A stretch of 64,000 nt of DNA, from positions 124,001-188,000 of the forward strand of contig JAHBWI010000004.1 in assembly GCA_019637075.1 (NCBI GenBank), in the 5' to 3' direction. The notes under the pieces were generated by a model. The model did not search any database. It saw nothing but the letters and a program-made list of their open reading frames with translations, and was not told where the DNA came from. Below, one piece after another: positions 5,187 through 10,303 of the stretch (positions are counted from its first letter, which is position 1; each line of letters begins with the position of its first letter). The translations under genes were made by a program, and so were the position numbers. The DNA is from Nitrospiraceae bacterium. Lineage in GTDB: Bacteria > Nitrospirota > Nitrospiria > Nitrospirales > Nitrospiraceae.

Positions 5187-5720
5187 TTATCGCTTGCGTG
5201 GGCCAGCTGCCCGCCCAGCCTGTTGTTTCTTGGCGCTCACCTCCAGCAGGAGCGGCGGCACCAGCCAGTTGCGGCGTTTGCTCTTATGCCGTTCGGAGAC
5301 GGCAAGCACGGTGTGAAACGGCAAGCCCGCGCCGTTGGCTTCGTCCCGGTGGCTGCTCCAGCCTTCTCCCGCTTCCGTCAGGATCTCGATGAAGGTTTGG
5401 TAATCGTCCTCTTCATCCGGCTTCGCCAACAGCTGGTCTGCGTCGGTCACGACGACGACGTAGCCCTTGGCCGGCAACCATTCCAGATCGATGAGGCATT
5501 CCTCGAGTGCATCCCAGTTGTGACCGAAATAATCTGGGAACGACAGGATTCTGGCGAATTCGGAGAGCAACCCGGCCTTGGTCTTACACTTGGCGCCCGA
5601 GACGGTTTTGAGCAGGAATCCGGAGGGCAGCGACAGGAGCGTTTCCGGCTTGTCTTGTTCCCCATGGACCAGCAAGTGGGCCCAGGGTTGTTTGGTCGAT
5701 TGCAGGACGGTCGTGGGCAT
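5187..5720 (-). CDS. barstar family ribonuclease inhibitor
   Basis: 177 residues, longer than B. amyloliquefaciens barstar (about 90). The core barstar signature is FPDYFGHNWDALEECLIDLEW at about 60-80, followed by YVVVVTDADQLL. In this family the acidic face binds and blocks a barnase-type RNase in the cytoplasm. It begins 6 bases after the stop of a barnase/T1-type RNase gene, which gives the cognate partner. The C-terminus is extended with a basic tail (AGRAAGPRKR). The combination strongly supports an enzyme-immunity pair. Confidence 0.88.
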   Translation of the reverse strand: MPTTVLQSTKQPWAHLLVHGEQDKPETLLSLPSGFLLKTVSGAKCKTKAGLLSEFARILSFPDYFGHNWDALEECLIDLEWLPAKGYVVVVTDADQLLAKPDEEDDYQTFIEILTEAGEGWSSHRDEANGAGLPFHTVLAVSERHKSKRRNWLVPPLLLEVSAKKQQAGRAAGPRKR

Positions 5721-5726
5721 GGAACC

Positions 5727-6200
5727 TCAATTCATCGGGATAAACGTCTTGTAGTGGTCGCCGGTGTAATAGGCTTTCCCGGTCCGCTGGTCGATCACGA
5801 TCCGCTCAGCCCCGCGATTCTTCCCCGGCACTTTAGGGTGGACGTCGTACTCGCGATAGGAACCACGGGGCAAACGGCGCTCACGATTCTGAAACGTGCG
5901 ACCGCCGACATAGCCGGGGACCGGCTCGCCCTTGCGGGCCTCGATCAGTTGCAGCGTTTCCCGCGCGACGCCTGGGATCGCGCCGTTCGCAGCGGGGGCC
6001 AGACTGTCGCGAGCTTTCGGTTGGGAAGCGGTCGCTTGCGAGGCGGTCGATGAAGCGGTCGCGGCGTCGGTTGGTGTGACGAGGATGGGGGACGCTTCCT
6101 GCAGCGCCGGAGCCGCTTCGGCTACAAGGCTGATCCCCGCGCAGGCGAAGATCACGCCCAGGAGCAGCAGGACTATTCTGGTGGCGCATCGGATAGACAT
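5727..6200 (-). CDS. secreted barnase-type (N1/T1 family) ribonuclease
   Basis: 157 residues. The signal peptide is about 1-30 (RIVLLLLGVIFACAGISLVAEA), followed by a Ser/Thr/Ala-rich spacer to ~75 and a compact RNase domain. By eye the barnase catalytic triad is present: Glu in SYREYDV (E117), Arg in GAERIVI (R133) and His in YTGDHYKTF (H149). YVGGRTFQNRERRLP matches the family's substrate-site region. It would cleave RNA after guanine outside the cell or in the periplasm. The next gene encodes a barstar-type inhibitor, so self-protection is built into the operon. Confidence 0.88.
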   Translation of the reverse strand: MSIRCATRIVLLLLGVIFACAGISLVAEAAPALQEASPILVTPTDAATASSTASQATASQPKARDSLAPAANGAIPGVARETLQLIEARKGEPVPGYVGGRTFQNRERRLPRGSYREYDVHPKVPGKNRGAERIVIDQRTGKAYYTGDHYKTFIPMN

Positions 6201-6289: not shown

Positions 6290-8638
6290 TCACAAACGGT
6301 CCGGCGCGTGTTCCGCCCCGTGCATACGCGCGAACAATTCCCAATCGAACTGCTTCGGATGGATCGCGTGCAGCGGAATCGTATCCATGGCGTGCGAATC
6401 GCGATAGGCGACCATTGAGCCCACGATCGATTCCGGCTGCTCGACGAGGCGTCGGACCGTTTCATACGCCAGATGCTGGCCGATCATCTTGTCTTCCGGC
6501 GTCGGGGGCGCGCCCCGCAACGTGTGACCGAGGATCGTGGCCTTGGTGGCGGACGCCAGGGAGTATTGGTCGGTCCCTTGGCGGCGCGGGGGCCATTTGG
6601 CGATGGCGTTCGCGACGTACTCGACCAATCCATGGACTCCGCCGTCTGGGTGATGCCGATGGGGGGTGCGCTCCGCCACGATGAAAATGTGACTCTTGTT
6701 CGGGACGCCGAGCGTGCGTTTGAGCGTGCCGAGCATCACCTGATCGATATAGGCGTTAGGGTCTGGGTGTTCGTTGACCAGAATGCCTTCCGCCCGAGCT
6801 TGATAGGCGCAGGCCAATGCCAGATGTCCCGATCCCGCCCCCATCACCTCGACGAAGAAGATGCTGCCCATCGCGGCGCTCGTGGCCTTGAGCGATTCGA
6901 TCGATTGGTTGGCAAGTGCGATGGCCGAGTGGAACCCCAATGAGGTCGTGCCGGCCAGGTTGTTGTCGATCGTGCCGGGAATTCCAACGACCTGGACGCC
7001 GAAGGTTTCGAAGATCGCCCTCGCCCCGCGCAGGCTGCCGTCGCCACCCAACACCACCACCGCGCTGTCCTGCAGATAGGGGGTGAGGCTGCGGACCGCC
7101 GCTCGTTGGACTTGTTCGTCCTTGAAGTCCTCGAAGCGGCTGCTGCCGATGGGGCTGCTGGCGTGGCTTCCCATGCCGCGCGTGTCTTCTTCGGTTACCG
7201 GTGTGATCCAGTTATTCGCGAGCCCCAGGAATCCGTGGCGCACGAACATGACCTCTAATCCGAAACGGTTGCCCGTCACGCGTAGTTCCTTCAGGGCCGC
7301 GCCGCCGCCGCCGAAGTCGCCGCCGGAAACCAACGCGATCAGCCGTTTGATCTGCCGGGGTTTGAGCGTGACCCGGTCTTTCCGTTCGCGCTCGATCGTG
7401 ATCCAGGCCTCGCGGGCCAGCCGTTCGCTTTCGATCAATCCGACCGCCGTCGAGTACCCGGACAGTTGGTTGTTCTCGAAGGTCAGGAGGACGACGTTGT
7501 CCTGGCCTTCTTTGTATTCGCCGAACTCCGAGAAGGCTTCCCGGAAGGGCCTGGGGTCGAGATAGATGCGCAGGGCGCGCAGGGTCGAGCTATGTGTATA
7601 GAGGCACAGCACTTGGCCCGGGTTCGATCGGCCCAACTGGTGGAGGCCATCGATGACGTCCATGTAGAGGTCGAAGAACGAGTGGCCGCCGGGGTAGCTG
7701 TAAAAGGGGTGCTTGATGAGGCGTTTCGCGCTCTTGGCATCGACGCCGAAGGCTTTTGCCGCCGCCTCGACCTCCGCCTGTTTTTCCATGCCGGTCACCC
7801 ACCCGAAGTCTTGCGACTCCAAGGTCGGCTCAGTTTGGGTTTGCGGGGGCGGAGCCGTCTCGTCACGTTTGGGCAGGAGGGCTTTGAGGATGCGCCGGCA
7901 GAGTTGTTCCGTATTGGGGCTAGTGCTGATGCGATGGTGAAAGCGGTTTGGGTCCAGGTAGTTGTGCAGTTGGAGATAGTCGAGCTGCTGCCCCACGACG
8001 CCCACCATGCGGGCCAGGGCGGCGCCGACCGCATCGGCCCGCGGGACGCCGCGCTCGGTATCCAGAATATTGGCGAGACGCCGTCCGACGCGATGGGTCT
8101 TGCTCTCGACTTGCGAGACGCCGTGGCGCATTGTAAAGAACAGCGCTCGATCCTTGAGTTCTCGCGGGAGCAGCCAAAACCGATCGTCGCCTAAATCGAG
8201 AACGATGCGGCCTTCCGCCAATTCCGGCGTGAGGTGCGCGCGCGGGACGATGGCGACGGGACGCCGATGCGCGGGCTTCTGCACCGCGCCGATCGGGGCG
8301 CGATAGAGCGGCGCCAATTCGCCTCGCGCCAGGAGATAATTCCACGCGGCATAGAACACCAGCTCGTCGCCGCCGCAGGCCTTCACGATCAGCTCACGGC
8401 GCGCATCGCGATAGGCTCCGGCGTTGGGCAAGCCCGCCGTCACGCGGCTGATGAAATTCCGGATCGCCTCGATCGCGGTCTCTGCGACGCGGCGCCGGTC
8501 GGATGTCTGGGGTGGTGGCCCTGGCAGTACATATCGGTCCGTGGAGGTCCGCTCCGCGAGCGATTCGGCGTAGGCGAGCAGCCCGTCGATGGTGACGAAA
8601 TCCAACTGCTCGGTGGGGCGGTCCTTCGGTGTCTCCAT
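6290..8638 (-). CDS. histidine-phosphatase / phosphofructokinase fusion protein
   Basis: About 782 residues from ATG 8638 (GAGGTG 5-6 nt upstream; the frame opens at 8695). Residues 1-165 are not recognised. Residues ~165-420 look like a histidine phosphatase: FTMRHGVSQVES carries the RHG catalytic His, and YTHSSTLRALRIYL the second His. Residues ~433-782 are a phosphofructokinase: LVSGGDFGGGGAAL, GSSRFEDF, VVLGGDGSLRGA, GIPGTIDNN and ILGHTLRGAPP. GGDG is the ATP-type rather than the PPi-type (GGDD) signature. Compared by eye with E. coli PfkA, the F6P-site Arg of VMGR is Ala (VMGAGSG) and the Asp after TIDN is Asn. It lies divergent from pyruvate kinase, so a glycolytic role is likely, but substrate and direction are uncertain. 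Confidence 0.82.
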   Translation of the reverse strand: METPKDRPTEQLDFVTIDGLLAYAESLAERTSTDRYVLPGPPPQTSDRRRVAETAIEAIRNFISRVTAGLPNAGAYRDARRELIVKACGGDELVFYAAWNYLLARGELAPLYRAPIGAVQKPAHRRPVAIVPRAHLTPELAEGRIVLDLGDDRFWLLPRELKDRALFFTMRHGVSQVESKTHRVGRRLANILDTERGVPRADAVGAALARMVGVVGQQLDYLQLHNYLDPNRFHHRISTSPNTEQLCRRILKALLPKRDETAPPPQTQTEPTLESQDFGWVTGMEKQAEVEAAAKAFGVDAKSAKRLIKHPFYSYPGGHSFFDLYMDVIDGLHQLGRSNPGQVLCLYTHSSTLRALRIYLDPRPFREAFSEFGEYKEGQDNVVLLTFENNQLSGYSTAVGLIESERLAREAWITIERERKDRVTLKPRQIKRLIALVSGGDFGGGGAALKELRVTGNRFGLEVMFVRHGFLGLANNWITPVTEEDTRGMGSHASSPIGSSRFEDFKDEQVQRAAVRSLTPYLQDSAVVVLGGDGSLRGARAIFETFGVQVVGIPGTIDNNLAGTTSLGFHSAIALANQSIESLKATSAAMGSIFFVEVMGAGSGHLALACAYQARAEGILVNEHPDPNAYIDQVMLGTLKRTLGVPNKSHIFIVAERTPHRHHPDGGVHGLVEYVANAIAKWPPRRQGTDQYSLASATKATILGHTLRGAPPTPEDKMIGQHLAYETVRRLVEQPESIVGSMVAYRDSHAMDTIPLHAIHPKQFDWELFARMHGAEHAPDRL

Positions 8639-8721
8639 GTGGCACCTCGTCGAGGTGTGATGCGCGCAGCGGATGCCGTCGCGTGCGGCGCTCACGCCAT
8701 GTGCGGCACGCGTATGTTCTT

Positions 8722-8750
8722 TTGCGGCATGAGAATACGTTTGTTAGAAT
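8722..8750 (+). promoter_or_regulatory. candidate sigma-70 promoter for pyruvate kinase
   Basis: TTGCGG (-35, 8722-8727) and TAGAAT (-10, 8745-8750) are separated by 17 bases. Transcription would start near 8757, giving a leader of about 80 bases before the GTG start at 8840. The -10 is one base from consensus; the -35 matches only the first three bases. Confidence 0.5.
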
Positions 8751-8839
8751 GACACAATTATCGTCTCGATGAAAGAAACCTTCTGACGATCCACCCCGTT
8801 GTCGCAGATTGTGACAGCCGTTTCCGATCGGAGTGCTCG

Positions 8840-10303
8840 GTGCCGACCATGCGCAAAGCCAAGATCGTCTGCACGATCGGCCCGGCGAGTGAGCGACAGG
8901 ACACGCTGGATCAGCTGATCGCTGCCGGCATGGACGCGGCCCGGTTGAACTTCTCGCACGGGACGCACGAATCGCATGGGCGGGCGATCAAAGCGGTCCG
9001 GCAGGCGGCGGAGCAGCGCGGCGTCGCGGTTTCCATCATTCAGGATTTGCAGGGACCCCGCATTCGGGTCGGTGAATTGCCCGAGGAAGGCGTGGAACTG
9101 GTGGCGGGCCGGCAGGTGCGATTGCGCACGATGGCCTTGCGATCGGGCGGGCAGATCGGCGCGCGCGCGGCGCGGCCGTCCGACGACGTTCCGGAATTGC
9201 CCGTCACGTACCAGCAATTGACCCGCGATGTGCGGCCCGGAGCAAGAATTCTGATCGACGACGGGCTCGTGGAGTTGCAGGCGCAGCGCATCGTCGAAGG
9301 GGCGGTGCTCTGTTCGGTGACGATCGGCGGGCGCGTGACCTCGCACAAGGGCATCAATTTACCCGGCACACAAGTCAGCGCGCCGACGCTGACGGAGAAG
9401 GACCGGGAAGATATTCGATTCGGGGTTGCGCAAGACGTCGATTACATCGCCCTGTCGTTCGTGCGGGGGCCGGAGGACGTCGTTGCCGCGAAACGCATGA
9501 TCCAAGAATGCGGCGGCAATGTGCCGGTCATTGCCAAAATCGAACGTCAGGAAGCGGTGGTCGCTCTGGCTGACATCTTGGAACAGGCCGATGGAGTGAT
9601 GATCGCCCGGGGCGACTTGGGCGTCGAATTGGGGCCGGAGGCCGTACCGGTTCTGCAGAAGCGGATTATTGCCAGTGCCAACCGGCGCCGTTGTCTGGTG
9701 ATCACGGCCACGCAAATGCTCGAATCGATGACGCACCATATCAGACCGACCAGGGCGGAAGCCTCGGATGTGGCCAATGCCGTGTTCGATGGGACCGATG
9801 CCGTGATGTTGTCGGCGGAAACGGCGGTGGGGCAGTACCCCGTCGAGGTCGTCCGAATCATGGATCGAATCGTGCGGGCGGCGGAGGTCGAGACGGAGCC
9901 GAGTTTTGTCCGGCGCGGGCAGCCGGACGGCGAACTGGTCTCGTTCCCGGAGGCCGTCTCTACTGCCGCCTCCACGGCGGCTGCGGCCACGGGCGCCAGC
10001 GCCATCGTCGCCTTCAGCGAGCGGGGTATGACCGCGCGGCTGGTCTCGAAACAGCGGCCTTCCGCACCGATCCTGGCCTTTACGCCTTTTGTGCCCGTCA
10101 GACAGCGGATGGCGCTATATTGGGGCGTGCGACCCTATACGATGCCGCAGATCTCCAATACCGACGAGCGTGTCGACGAAGCCGAACGCCGCCTGAAGGC
10201 GGAGGGGCTTGTCACGGCAGGGCAGCGCATCGTCATTCTGTCCGGCACCCGCATCGGCCAGCCGGGCGGAACCAATCTCATGAAACTGCATAAAGTCGGC
10301 TGA
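8840..10303 (+). CDS. pyk: pyruvate kinase
   Basis: 487 residues, normal length for bacterial pyruvate kinase, which makes ATP and pyruvate from phosphoenolpyruvate and ADP. The family blocks are in order: KIVCTIGPAS at the N-terminus, ARLNFSHGTHESH, QDLQGPRIRVG, the VPVIAKIERQEAV strand carrying the catalytic Lys, VMIARGDLGVELG, and ITATQMLESM. The C-terminal domain ends GTRIGQPGGTN. A GTG at 8840 has GGAG six bases upstream and is preferred to ATG 8849. The gene is divergent from the PFK fusion, so two control points of glycolysis share one intergenic region. Confidence 0.97.
   Translation: MPTMRKAKIVCTIGPASERQDTLDQLIAAGMDAARLNFSHGTHESHGRAIKAVRQAAEQRGVAVSIIQDLQGPRIRVGELPEEGVELVAGRQVRLRTMALRSGGQIGARAARPSDDVPELPVTYQQLTRDVRPGARILIDDGLVELQAQRIVEGAVLCSVTIGGRVTSHKGINLPGTQVSAPTLTEKDREDIRFGVAQDVDYIALSFVRGPEDVVAAKRMIQECGGNVPVIAKIERQEAVVALADILEQADGVMIARGDLGVELGPEAVPVLQKRIIASANRRRCLVITATQMLESMTHHIRPTRAEASDVANAVFDGTDAVMLSAETAVGQYPVEVVRIMDRIVRAAEVETEPSFVRRGQPDGELVSFPEAVSTAASTAAAATGASAIVAFSERGMTARLVSKQRPSAPILAFTPFVPVRQRMALYWGVRPYTMPQISNTDERVDEAERRLKAEGLVTAGQRIVILSGTRIGQPGGTNLMKLHKVG

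Follow-up and report, generated by a model that had tools for sequence, protein, structure and literature searches.

A 64,000-nucleotide stretch of a Nitrospiraceae genome (the window) encodes a protein in which a histidine-phosphatase (HP) fold is joined in front of a PfkA-family kinase domain. Sequence comparison and structure prediction establish the two folds, the conservation of their fusion, its residue changes, purifying selection, and linkage to a pyruvate kinase gene. As a tentative explanation, to which we give somewhat less than an even chance, we propose that the protein is a sugar-phosphate kinase of the PfkA type and that its HP domain binds a phosphorylated metabolite and thereby controls it.

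The fusion gene runs on the minus strand from an ATG at position 8638 to a stop at 6290 (8638..6290), in a genome of 4.06 Mb whose closest matches are Nitrospira. An alternative GTG start upstream, at 8695, would lengthen the product to 801 residues. The original prediction, which did not give the strand, described a 782-residue frame joining phosphatase-like and phosphofructokinase (PFK) domains; this frame was recovered, with the motifs RHG (171-173), THSS (348-351), GGDG (531-534), TIDNN (556-560), and MGA (599-601) in place. The divergent orientation of a pyruvate kinase gene was also predicted correctly. The layout is as follows:

6290..8638, minus strand: HP-PfkA fusion gene, 782 residues, ATG start, stop included, supported by full-length orthologs
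8159..8611, minus strand: N-terminal helical region, residues 10-160, with predicted helices at 17-28, 48-68, 73-87, and 92-104
7439..8158, minus strand: HP-fold domain, residues 161-400, from Pfam on orthologs, profile-profile comparison, and fold superposition
6329..7351, minus strand: PfkA-family kinase domain, residues 430-770, from Pfam, alignment, and fold match
8840..10303, plus strand: pyruvate kinase gene, divergent from the fusion gene

Orthologs of the fusion protein are present in 100 of the 396 sampled Nitrospirota genomes, in one class only and at 61-85% identity. They also occur at 58 loci of the species-genome collection, all from Nitrospirota and nearly all full length. A profile of residues 1-428, run against 198 genomes of the phylum sample, matched nothing besides the fusions. 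The possibility that two genes were joined only here by a missing stop codon or an assembly artefact is therefore ruled out, because the orthologs are fused across the class and no separate halves were found in the genomes searched. A scan of 84,980 species genomes returned matches only in Nitrospirota; it used six exact 8-residue patterns, and more distant HP-PfkA fusions may therefore exist outside the phylum. Plasmid records searched for the fusion contained only ordinary PFKs, matching over residues ~418-773. Two damaged copies were observed. In the complete chromosome of Candidatus Manganitrophus (L060 7926-10306) the fusion is read in two frames, broken where the PFK domain begins (GGDFAG); this single case is likely due to an indel or sequencing error. 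An ortholog of 61% identity in another genome (G330, C1:133636-135930) has five in-frame stop codons, which may reflect decay of this copy or a fault in the assembly.

Both the HP and kinase domains are under strong purifying selection. Close pairs have dN/dS ratios of 0.02-0.07 in the kinase, 0.02-0.10 in the HP domain, and 0.10-0.35 in the N-terminal region, which is the least conserved part of the protein. Mean identity to the window protein rises from 64% in the N-terminal region to 74% in the HP domain and 81% in the kinase, and reaches 94% in residues 575-630 around the substrate site. The constraint on the kinase domain, the highest in the protein, speaks for an active, specialised site and against decay.

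Pfam family PF00300 matches the window protein alone only under the cut-off (E 9e-4), and is matched by 30 of 32 orthologs with a best E of 2.6e-6. Alignment with hhalign against six HP/phosphoglycerate-mutase proteins gave a probability of 98% and an E of 5.5e-12 over 201 columns. In the AlphaFold2 model of residues 1-428 (pLDDT 82, pTM 0.83), residues 164-398 superpose on solved HP enzymes, with a Z score of 16.0 and 2.8 Å over 193 residues for 4ij6, and a Z score of 15.7 for 1ebb. The hhalign result and the superposition bear out the HP fold that had been predicted for residues 165-420. Confidence is lower for the model of the entire chain (pLDDT 75, pTM 0.54), and we therefore claim no arrangement of the domains. 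The active-site positions of the HP domain are:

8120..8128, minus strand: R171-H172-G173, with the pocket arginine and the nucleophile histidine, in 71 of 71 orthologs
7592..7594, minus strand: H349, the second catalytic histidine, in 71 of 71 orthologs
7907..7921, minus strand: S240-P-N-T-E244, where 244 is the position of the second pocket arginine, from alignment and ortholog comparison
7790..7822, minus strand: L273-E-S-Q-D-F-G-W-V-T-G283, with S275 at the general-acid glutamate column, from alignment

The hhalign alignment was used to place the positions of the canonical HP residues on the fusion protein. Position 244, a glutamate in the window protein, is Arg in 31, Glu in 22, Thr in 10, and Lys in 4 of the 71 orthologs, with Ser, Ala, or Gln in others. 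The column of the general-acid glutamate holds S275 in 69 of 71 orthologs, flanked by E/D274 and an invariant D277, in an alignment that may be off by one between 274 and 275. The glutamate of the PGGES motif is replaced by His or Asn in the fusion orthologs. The general-acid glutamate is not kept in every HP phosphatase. On this pattern of residues, normal HP phosphatase activity of the fusion is doubtful.

The same residues bear on whether the protein could be bifunctional, such that the product of the PfkA domain, a sugar (bis)phosphate, or a related compound is dephosphorylated by the HP domain, as in a convergent counterpart of PFK-2/FBPase-2. Such an enzyme is unlikely, though it would account for two selected domains in one chain, for the invariance of the pocket residues Arg171, His172, and His349, and for the presence of PFKFB3 and TIGAR among the best Foldseek matches. 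However, the PFKFB3 matches have an rmsd of >20 Å over long alignments, the second pocket arginine is variable, and serine takes the place of the general-acid glutamate, albeit with acidic residues adjacent. The evidence lends no support to the self-reversing glycolytic switch of the animal PFK-2/FBPase-2 type that was originally suggested, although such a switch is possible. By the alignment, two of the five catalytic residues canonical in HP enzymes have not been retained; among the fold matches, FBPase-2 does not stand out from PhoE, from phosphoserine phosphatase, or from phosphoglycerate mutase; and almost all genomes, fusion-bearing or not, encode class I FBPase. A two-way switch requires an active phosphatase, which the conserved HP residues favour only in part. 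Pfam found no match to the PFK-2 family in the fusion protein, the kinase of which belongs to PF00365, and nothing in the analysis points to fructose 2,6-bisphosphate. The boldest form of the idea, an independently evolved bacterial PfkA-based kinase/phosphatase switch that forms and removes a regulatory sugar phosphate and couples upper glycolysis to pyruvate kinase in nitrite oxidisers, appears to us rather improbable.

The kinase domain matches PF00365 over residues 434-729 (E 8.9e-55, 186 bits against a cut-off of 30.9), and in the whole-chain model it superposes on 1pfk with a Z score of 25.5, an rmsd of 2.6 Å over 214 residues, and 30% identity. Together with its ATP signatures, this agrees with the ATP-type PfkA-family kinase that had been proposed. 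Its scores fall below all NCBIfam PFK cut-offs (182.5 of 253 bits for PRK03202 and 169.7 of 371 for PFKA_ATP). The site was compared, in E. coli numbering, with five PfkA proteins and the canonical PFK of the host genome:

7034..7048, minus strand: G531-G-D-G-S535, ATP-type donor signature, from alignment and the donor rule in PMC12203962
6959..6979, minus strand: P554-G-T-I-D558-N-N560, Asp127 kept and Asp129 replaced by Asn in all orthologs, from alignment
6824..6847, minus strand: V598-M-G-A601-G-S-G-H605, a near-invariant stretch with Arg171 replaced by Ala in all orthologs, from alignment
6512..6547, minus strand: T698-K699-A-T-I-L-G-H705-T-L-R708-G, His249 and Arg252 kept, Arg243 replaced by Lys, from alignment

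Residues Gly11, Arg72, Asp103, Gly104, Thr125, Asp127, Met169, Gly170, Glu222, His249, and Arg252 of E. coli PfkA are kept. The donor glycines of GGDGSLRG (G531-G534 and G538) are invariant in the orthologs. According to a recent superfamily review, GGDG and the later glycine are ATP signatures, Asp127 is the catalytic base, and Arg162' is a ligand of the fructose 6-phosphate (F6P) phosphate (PMC12203962). The P(G/K)TIDXD motif with two aspartates, described in the same review (PMC12203962), reads PGTIDNN in the fusion, with the second aspartate replaced by asparagine in 71 of 71 orthologs. The replaced residues are Asp129 (Asn560), Arg171 (Ala601), Arg162 (Ser/Thr592), and Arg243 (Lys); the first three are present in all five PfkA references, and Ala601 and Asn560 are invariant in the 71 orthologs. 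Both substitutions noticed by eye in the original prediction, that of the F6P-site arginine of VMGR and that of the aspartate after TIDN, thus hold in the alignment, and altered substrate handling, as it had suggested, is plausible from these conserved changes. Residues Arg21, Arg25, Arg54, Arg154, Lys211, and Lys213, the effector-site positions of E. coli PfkA, are Lys, Val, Glu, Lys, Val, and Asn in the fusion. The changes at Arg243 and Arg54 weigh little, because lysine is likewise found at 243 in Bacillus methanolicus PfkA and the group III enzyme, and the references do not all share Arg54. The fusion has its own near-invariant motifs, SLKATSAAMGS, MGAGSGHLALACAYQARAEG, and PHRHH. The last of these, residues 659-663 (6650-6664, minus strand), is a histidine-rich motif that follows the Glu222 equivalent, is not found in ordinary PfkA, and may bind a metal or a ligand.

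The loss of Arg162 and Arg171 makes a changed substrate plausible. The site may have been re-shaped for another phosphorylated compound, for example sedoheptulose 7-phosphate (S7P) or a compound other than a sugar, and the HP domain may belong to that side pathway too. The substrate-side changes are invariant rather than random, and the peculiar motifs, the scores under every NCBIfam PFK cut-off, and the canonical PFK found in 16 of the 28 fusion-bearing genomes are consistent with such a kinase. However, an S7P bypass is unneeded, since transaldolase-family proteins are encoded in nearly all genomes, and the pyruvate kinase linkage points to glycolysis; we regard a different substrate as improbable on balance. 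Still less probable is that a weak or dead kinase and a dead phosphatase together form a regulator or scaffold that binds metabolites, perhaps one for pyruvate kinase. Residues are lost from both active sites, and eukaryotic PFK, whose C-terminal half has become regulatory, shows that a PFK fold can take such a role; in our alignment, that half of liver PFK has TISNN and MGG at the places of TIDNN and MGA. Against a scaffold, Asp127, the ATP signature, Glu222, His249, and Arg252 never vary in the orthologs, conservation is highest in the stretch around the active site, and some genomes have no other PF00365 protein.

The genomic neighbourhood of the fusion points to glycolysis, of which pyruvate kinase is the final enzyme. 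The start of the pyruvate kinase gene is ~200 bp from that of the fusion gene, and the two genes adjoin in 22 of 28 fusion-bearing relatives (families f1, f2, and f3). By coordinates, they are divergent in most relatives and co-directional in others, with pyruvate kinase downstream; two further loci (L033 and L037) have the convergent order. Pyruvate kinase occurs in 27 of 28 fusion genomes and 15 of 33 others, as raw counts that ignore relatedness. No sigma-70-like promoter was found in 8500-9000. The host genome contains two pyruvate kinase genes (G000:C1:449545-450510 and window 8840-10303), and only the latter is beside the fusion. On the other side, a barstar-family protein (PF01337, E 9.5e-26) is encoded directly downstream of a secreted-looking barnase/T1-family ribonuclease (PF00545, E 1.2e-15), at 5187-5720 and 5727-6200 on the minus strand, and this pair accompanies the fusion gene in most related loci.

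The host genome also encodes a second PFK (G000:C9, L080:1273-2598, 441 residues), which matches NCBIfam PRK06830 with 599 bits against a cut-off of 400. Both proteins belong to the PfkA superfamily and the second is of the ATP-dependent type by its model; unlike the fusion, it keeps Arg171 and Asp129 and has no HP domain. The fusion is therefore not the only candidate PFK of its host. For 12 of the 28 fusion genomes, which include incomplete drafts, the fusion was the only PF00365 protein detected. PF00365 PFK is absent from 28 of 61 Nitrospirota genomes, several of them complete; most of these encode FBPase and some pyruvate kinase. The idea that the HP domain stands in for FBPase finds no support, given how widespread class I FBPase is, nor does an S7P bypass for a missing transaldolase. 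A link of the fusion to glycogen phosphorylase was looked for and gave no clear pattern.

Based on these observations, a mechanism can be proposed in which the fusion is an ATP-dependent PfkA-superfamily sugar-phosphate kinase, most likely acting on F6P or a close relative. The kinase would have lost its own ADP/PEP effector site, and the HP domain would be mainly regulatory, binding a phosphorylated metabolite and perhaps acting as a weak or specialised phosphatase. It may thereby set kinase activity in step with the pyruvate kinase encoded next to it. We infer an active kinase from the intact ATP determinants (GGDG, PGTID, and Gly538) and the retained Asp127, Arg72, Glu222, His249, and Arg252. 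A sensing rather than fully catalytic HP domain would fit its constraint and the retention of RHG and His349 beside a second arginine and acid in non-canonical form. The changed effector residues, the adjacent pyruvate kinase in 22 of 28 relatives, and the 12 of 28 genomes lacking another PF00365 protein are consistent with a regulated kinase that has an F6P-like substrate. Against it stand the loss of Arg162 and Arg171 and the asparagine at Asp129; because Arg162' binds the F6P phosphate (PMC12203962), F6P may not be the substrate. The invariant RHG and second histidine could mean real HP catalysis, and the host has a complete canonical PFK besides the fusion.

PFK is the textbook control point of glycolysis, and the sugar metabolism of the Nitrospirota that carry the fusion, many of them nitrite oxidisers, is poorly understood. 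About a quarter of the sampled Nitrospirota genomes encode this PFK-superfamily protein with a strictly conserved non-canonical site and a phosphatase-fold domain. If it is annotated as an ordinary PFK, the glycolysis of these organisms may be misrepresented, and the fusion may be an unrecognised control of sugar breakdown in Nitrospira-type nitrite oxidisers. Both domains are known, but searches of the open literature did not turn up their combination and yielded no papers on a Nitrospira PFK or a PFK-HP fusion; annotations of Nitrospira genomes may already record it. Great Lakes Nitrospira were reported to lack PFK (PMC9239080). A text search of the 2025 PFK superfamily review for fusion, phosphatase, and Nitrospira showed nothing of the HP-PfkA kind, and the review predicts the discovery of further domain fusions (PMC12203962).

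The fusion combines features of several known systems. It shares with E. coli PfkA (1pfk) the fold, the ATP signature, Asp127, Glu222, His249, and Arg252, and differs from it in the replacement of Arg171 by Ala, Asp129 by Asn, and Arg162 by Ser/Thr, in the changed effector site, in ~430 additional N-terminal residues, and in falling under the NCBIfam PFK cut-offs. With branch 1 of the HP superfamily (PhoE 1ebb, phosphoserine phosphatase 4ij6, and phosphoglycerate mutase), it has in common the fold over residues 164-398 (Z ~15-16), RHG, and the second histidine, whereas it lacks a conserved second arginine, has serine at the acid column and His or Asn for the glutamate of GES, and always carries its HP domain joined to a kinase. 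PFK-2/FBPase-2 (PFKFB) likewise has an HP-fold domain and a kinase on a single polypeptide tied to glycolysis, but in the fusion their order is reversed, the kinase is of the PfkA rather than the P-loop PFK-2 type, and the HP catalytic set is incomplete. A precedent for the proposed regulated kinase is yeast PFK, which has a fused N-terminal domain related to the enzyme glyoxalase I (PMC12203962). The Nitrospirota protein is bacterial, has a single PFK unit, and carries a different added fold, but in both proteins an enzyme-derived domain is placed in front of PFK.
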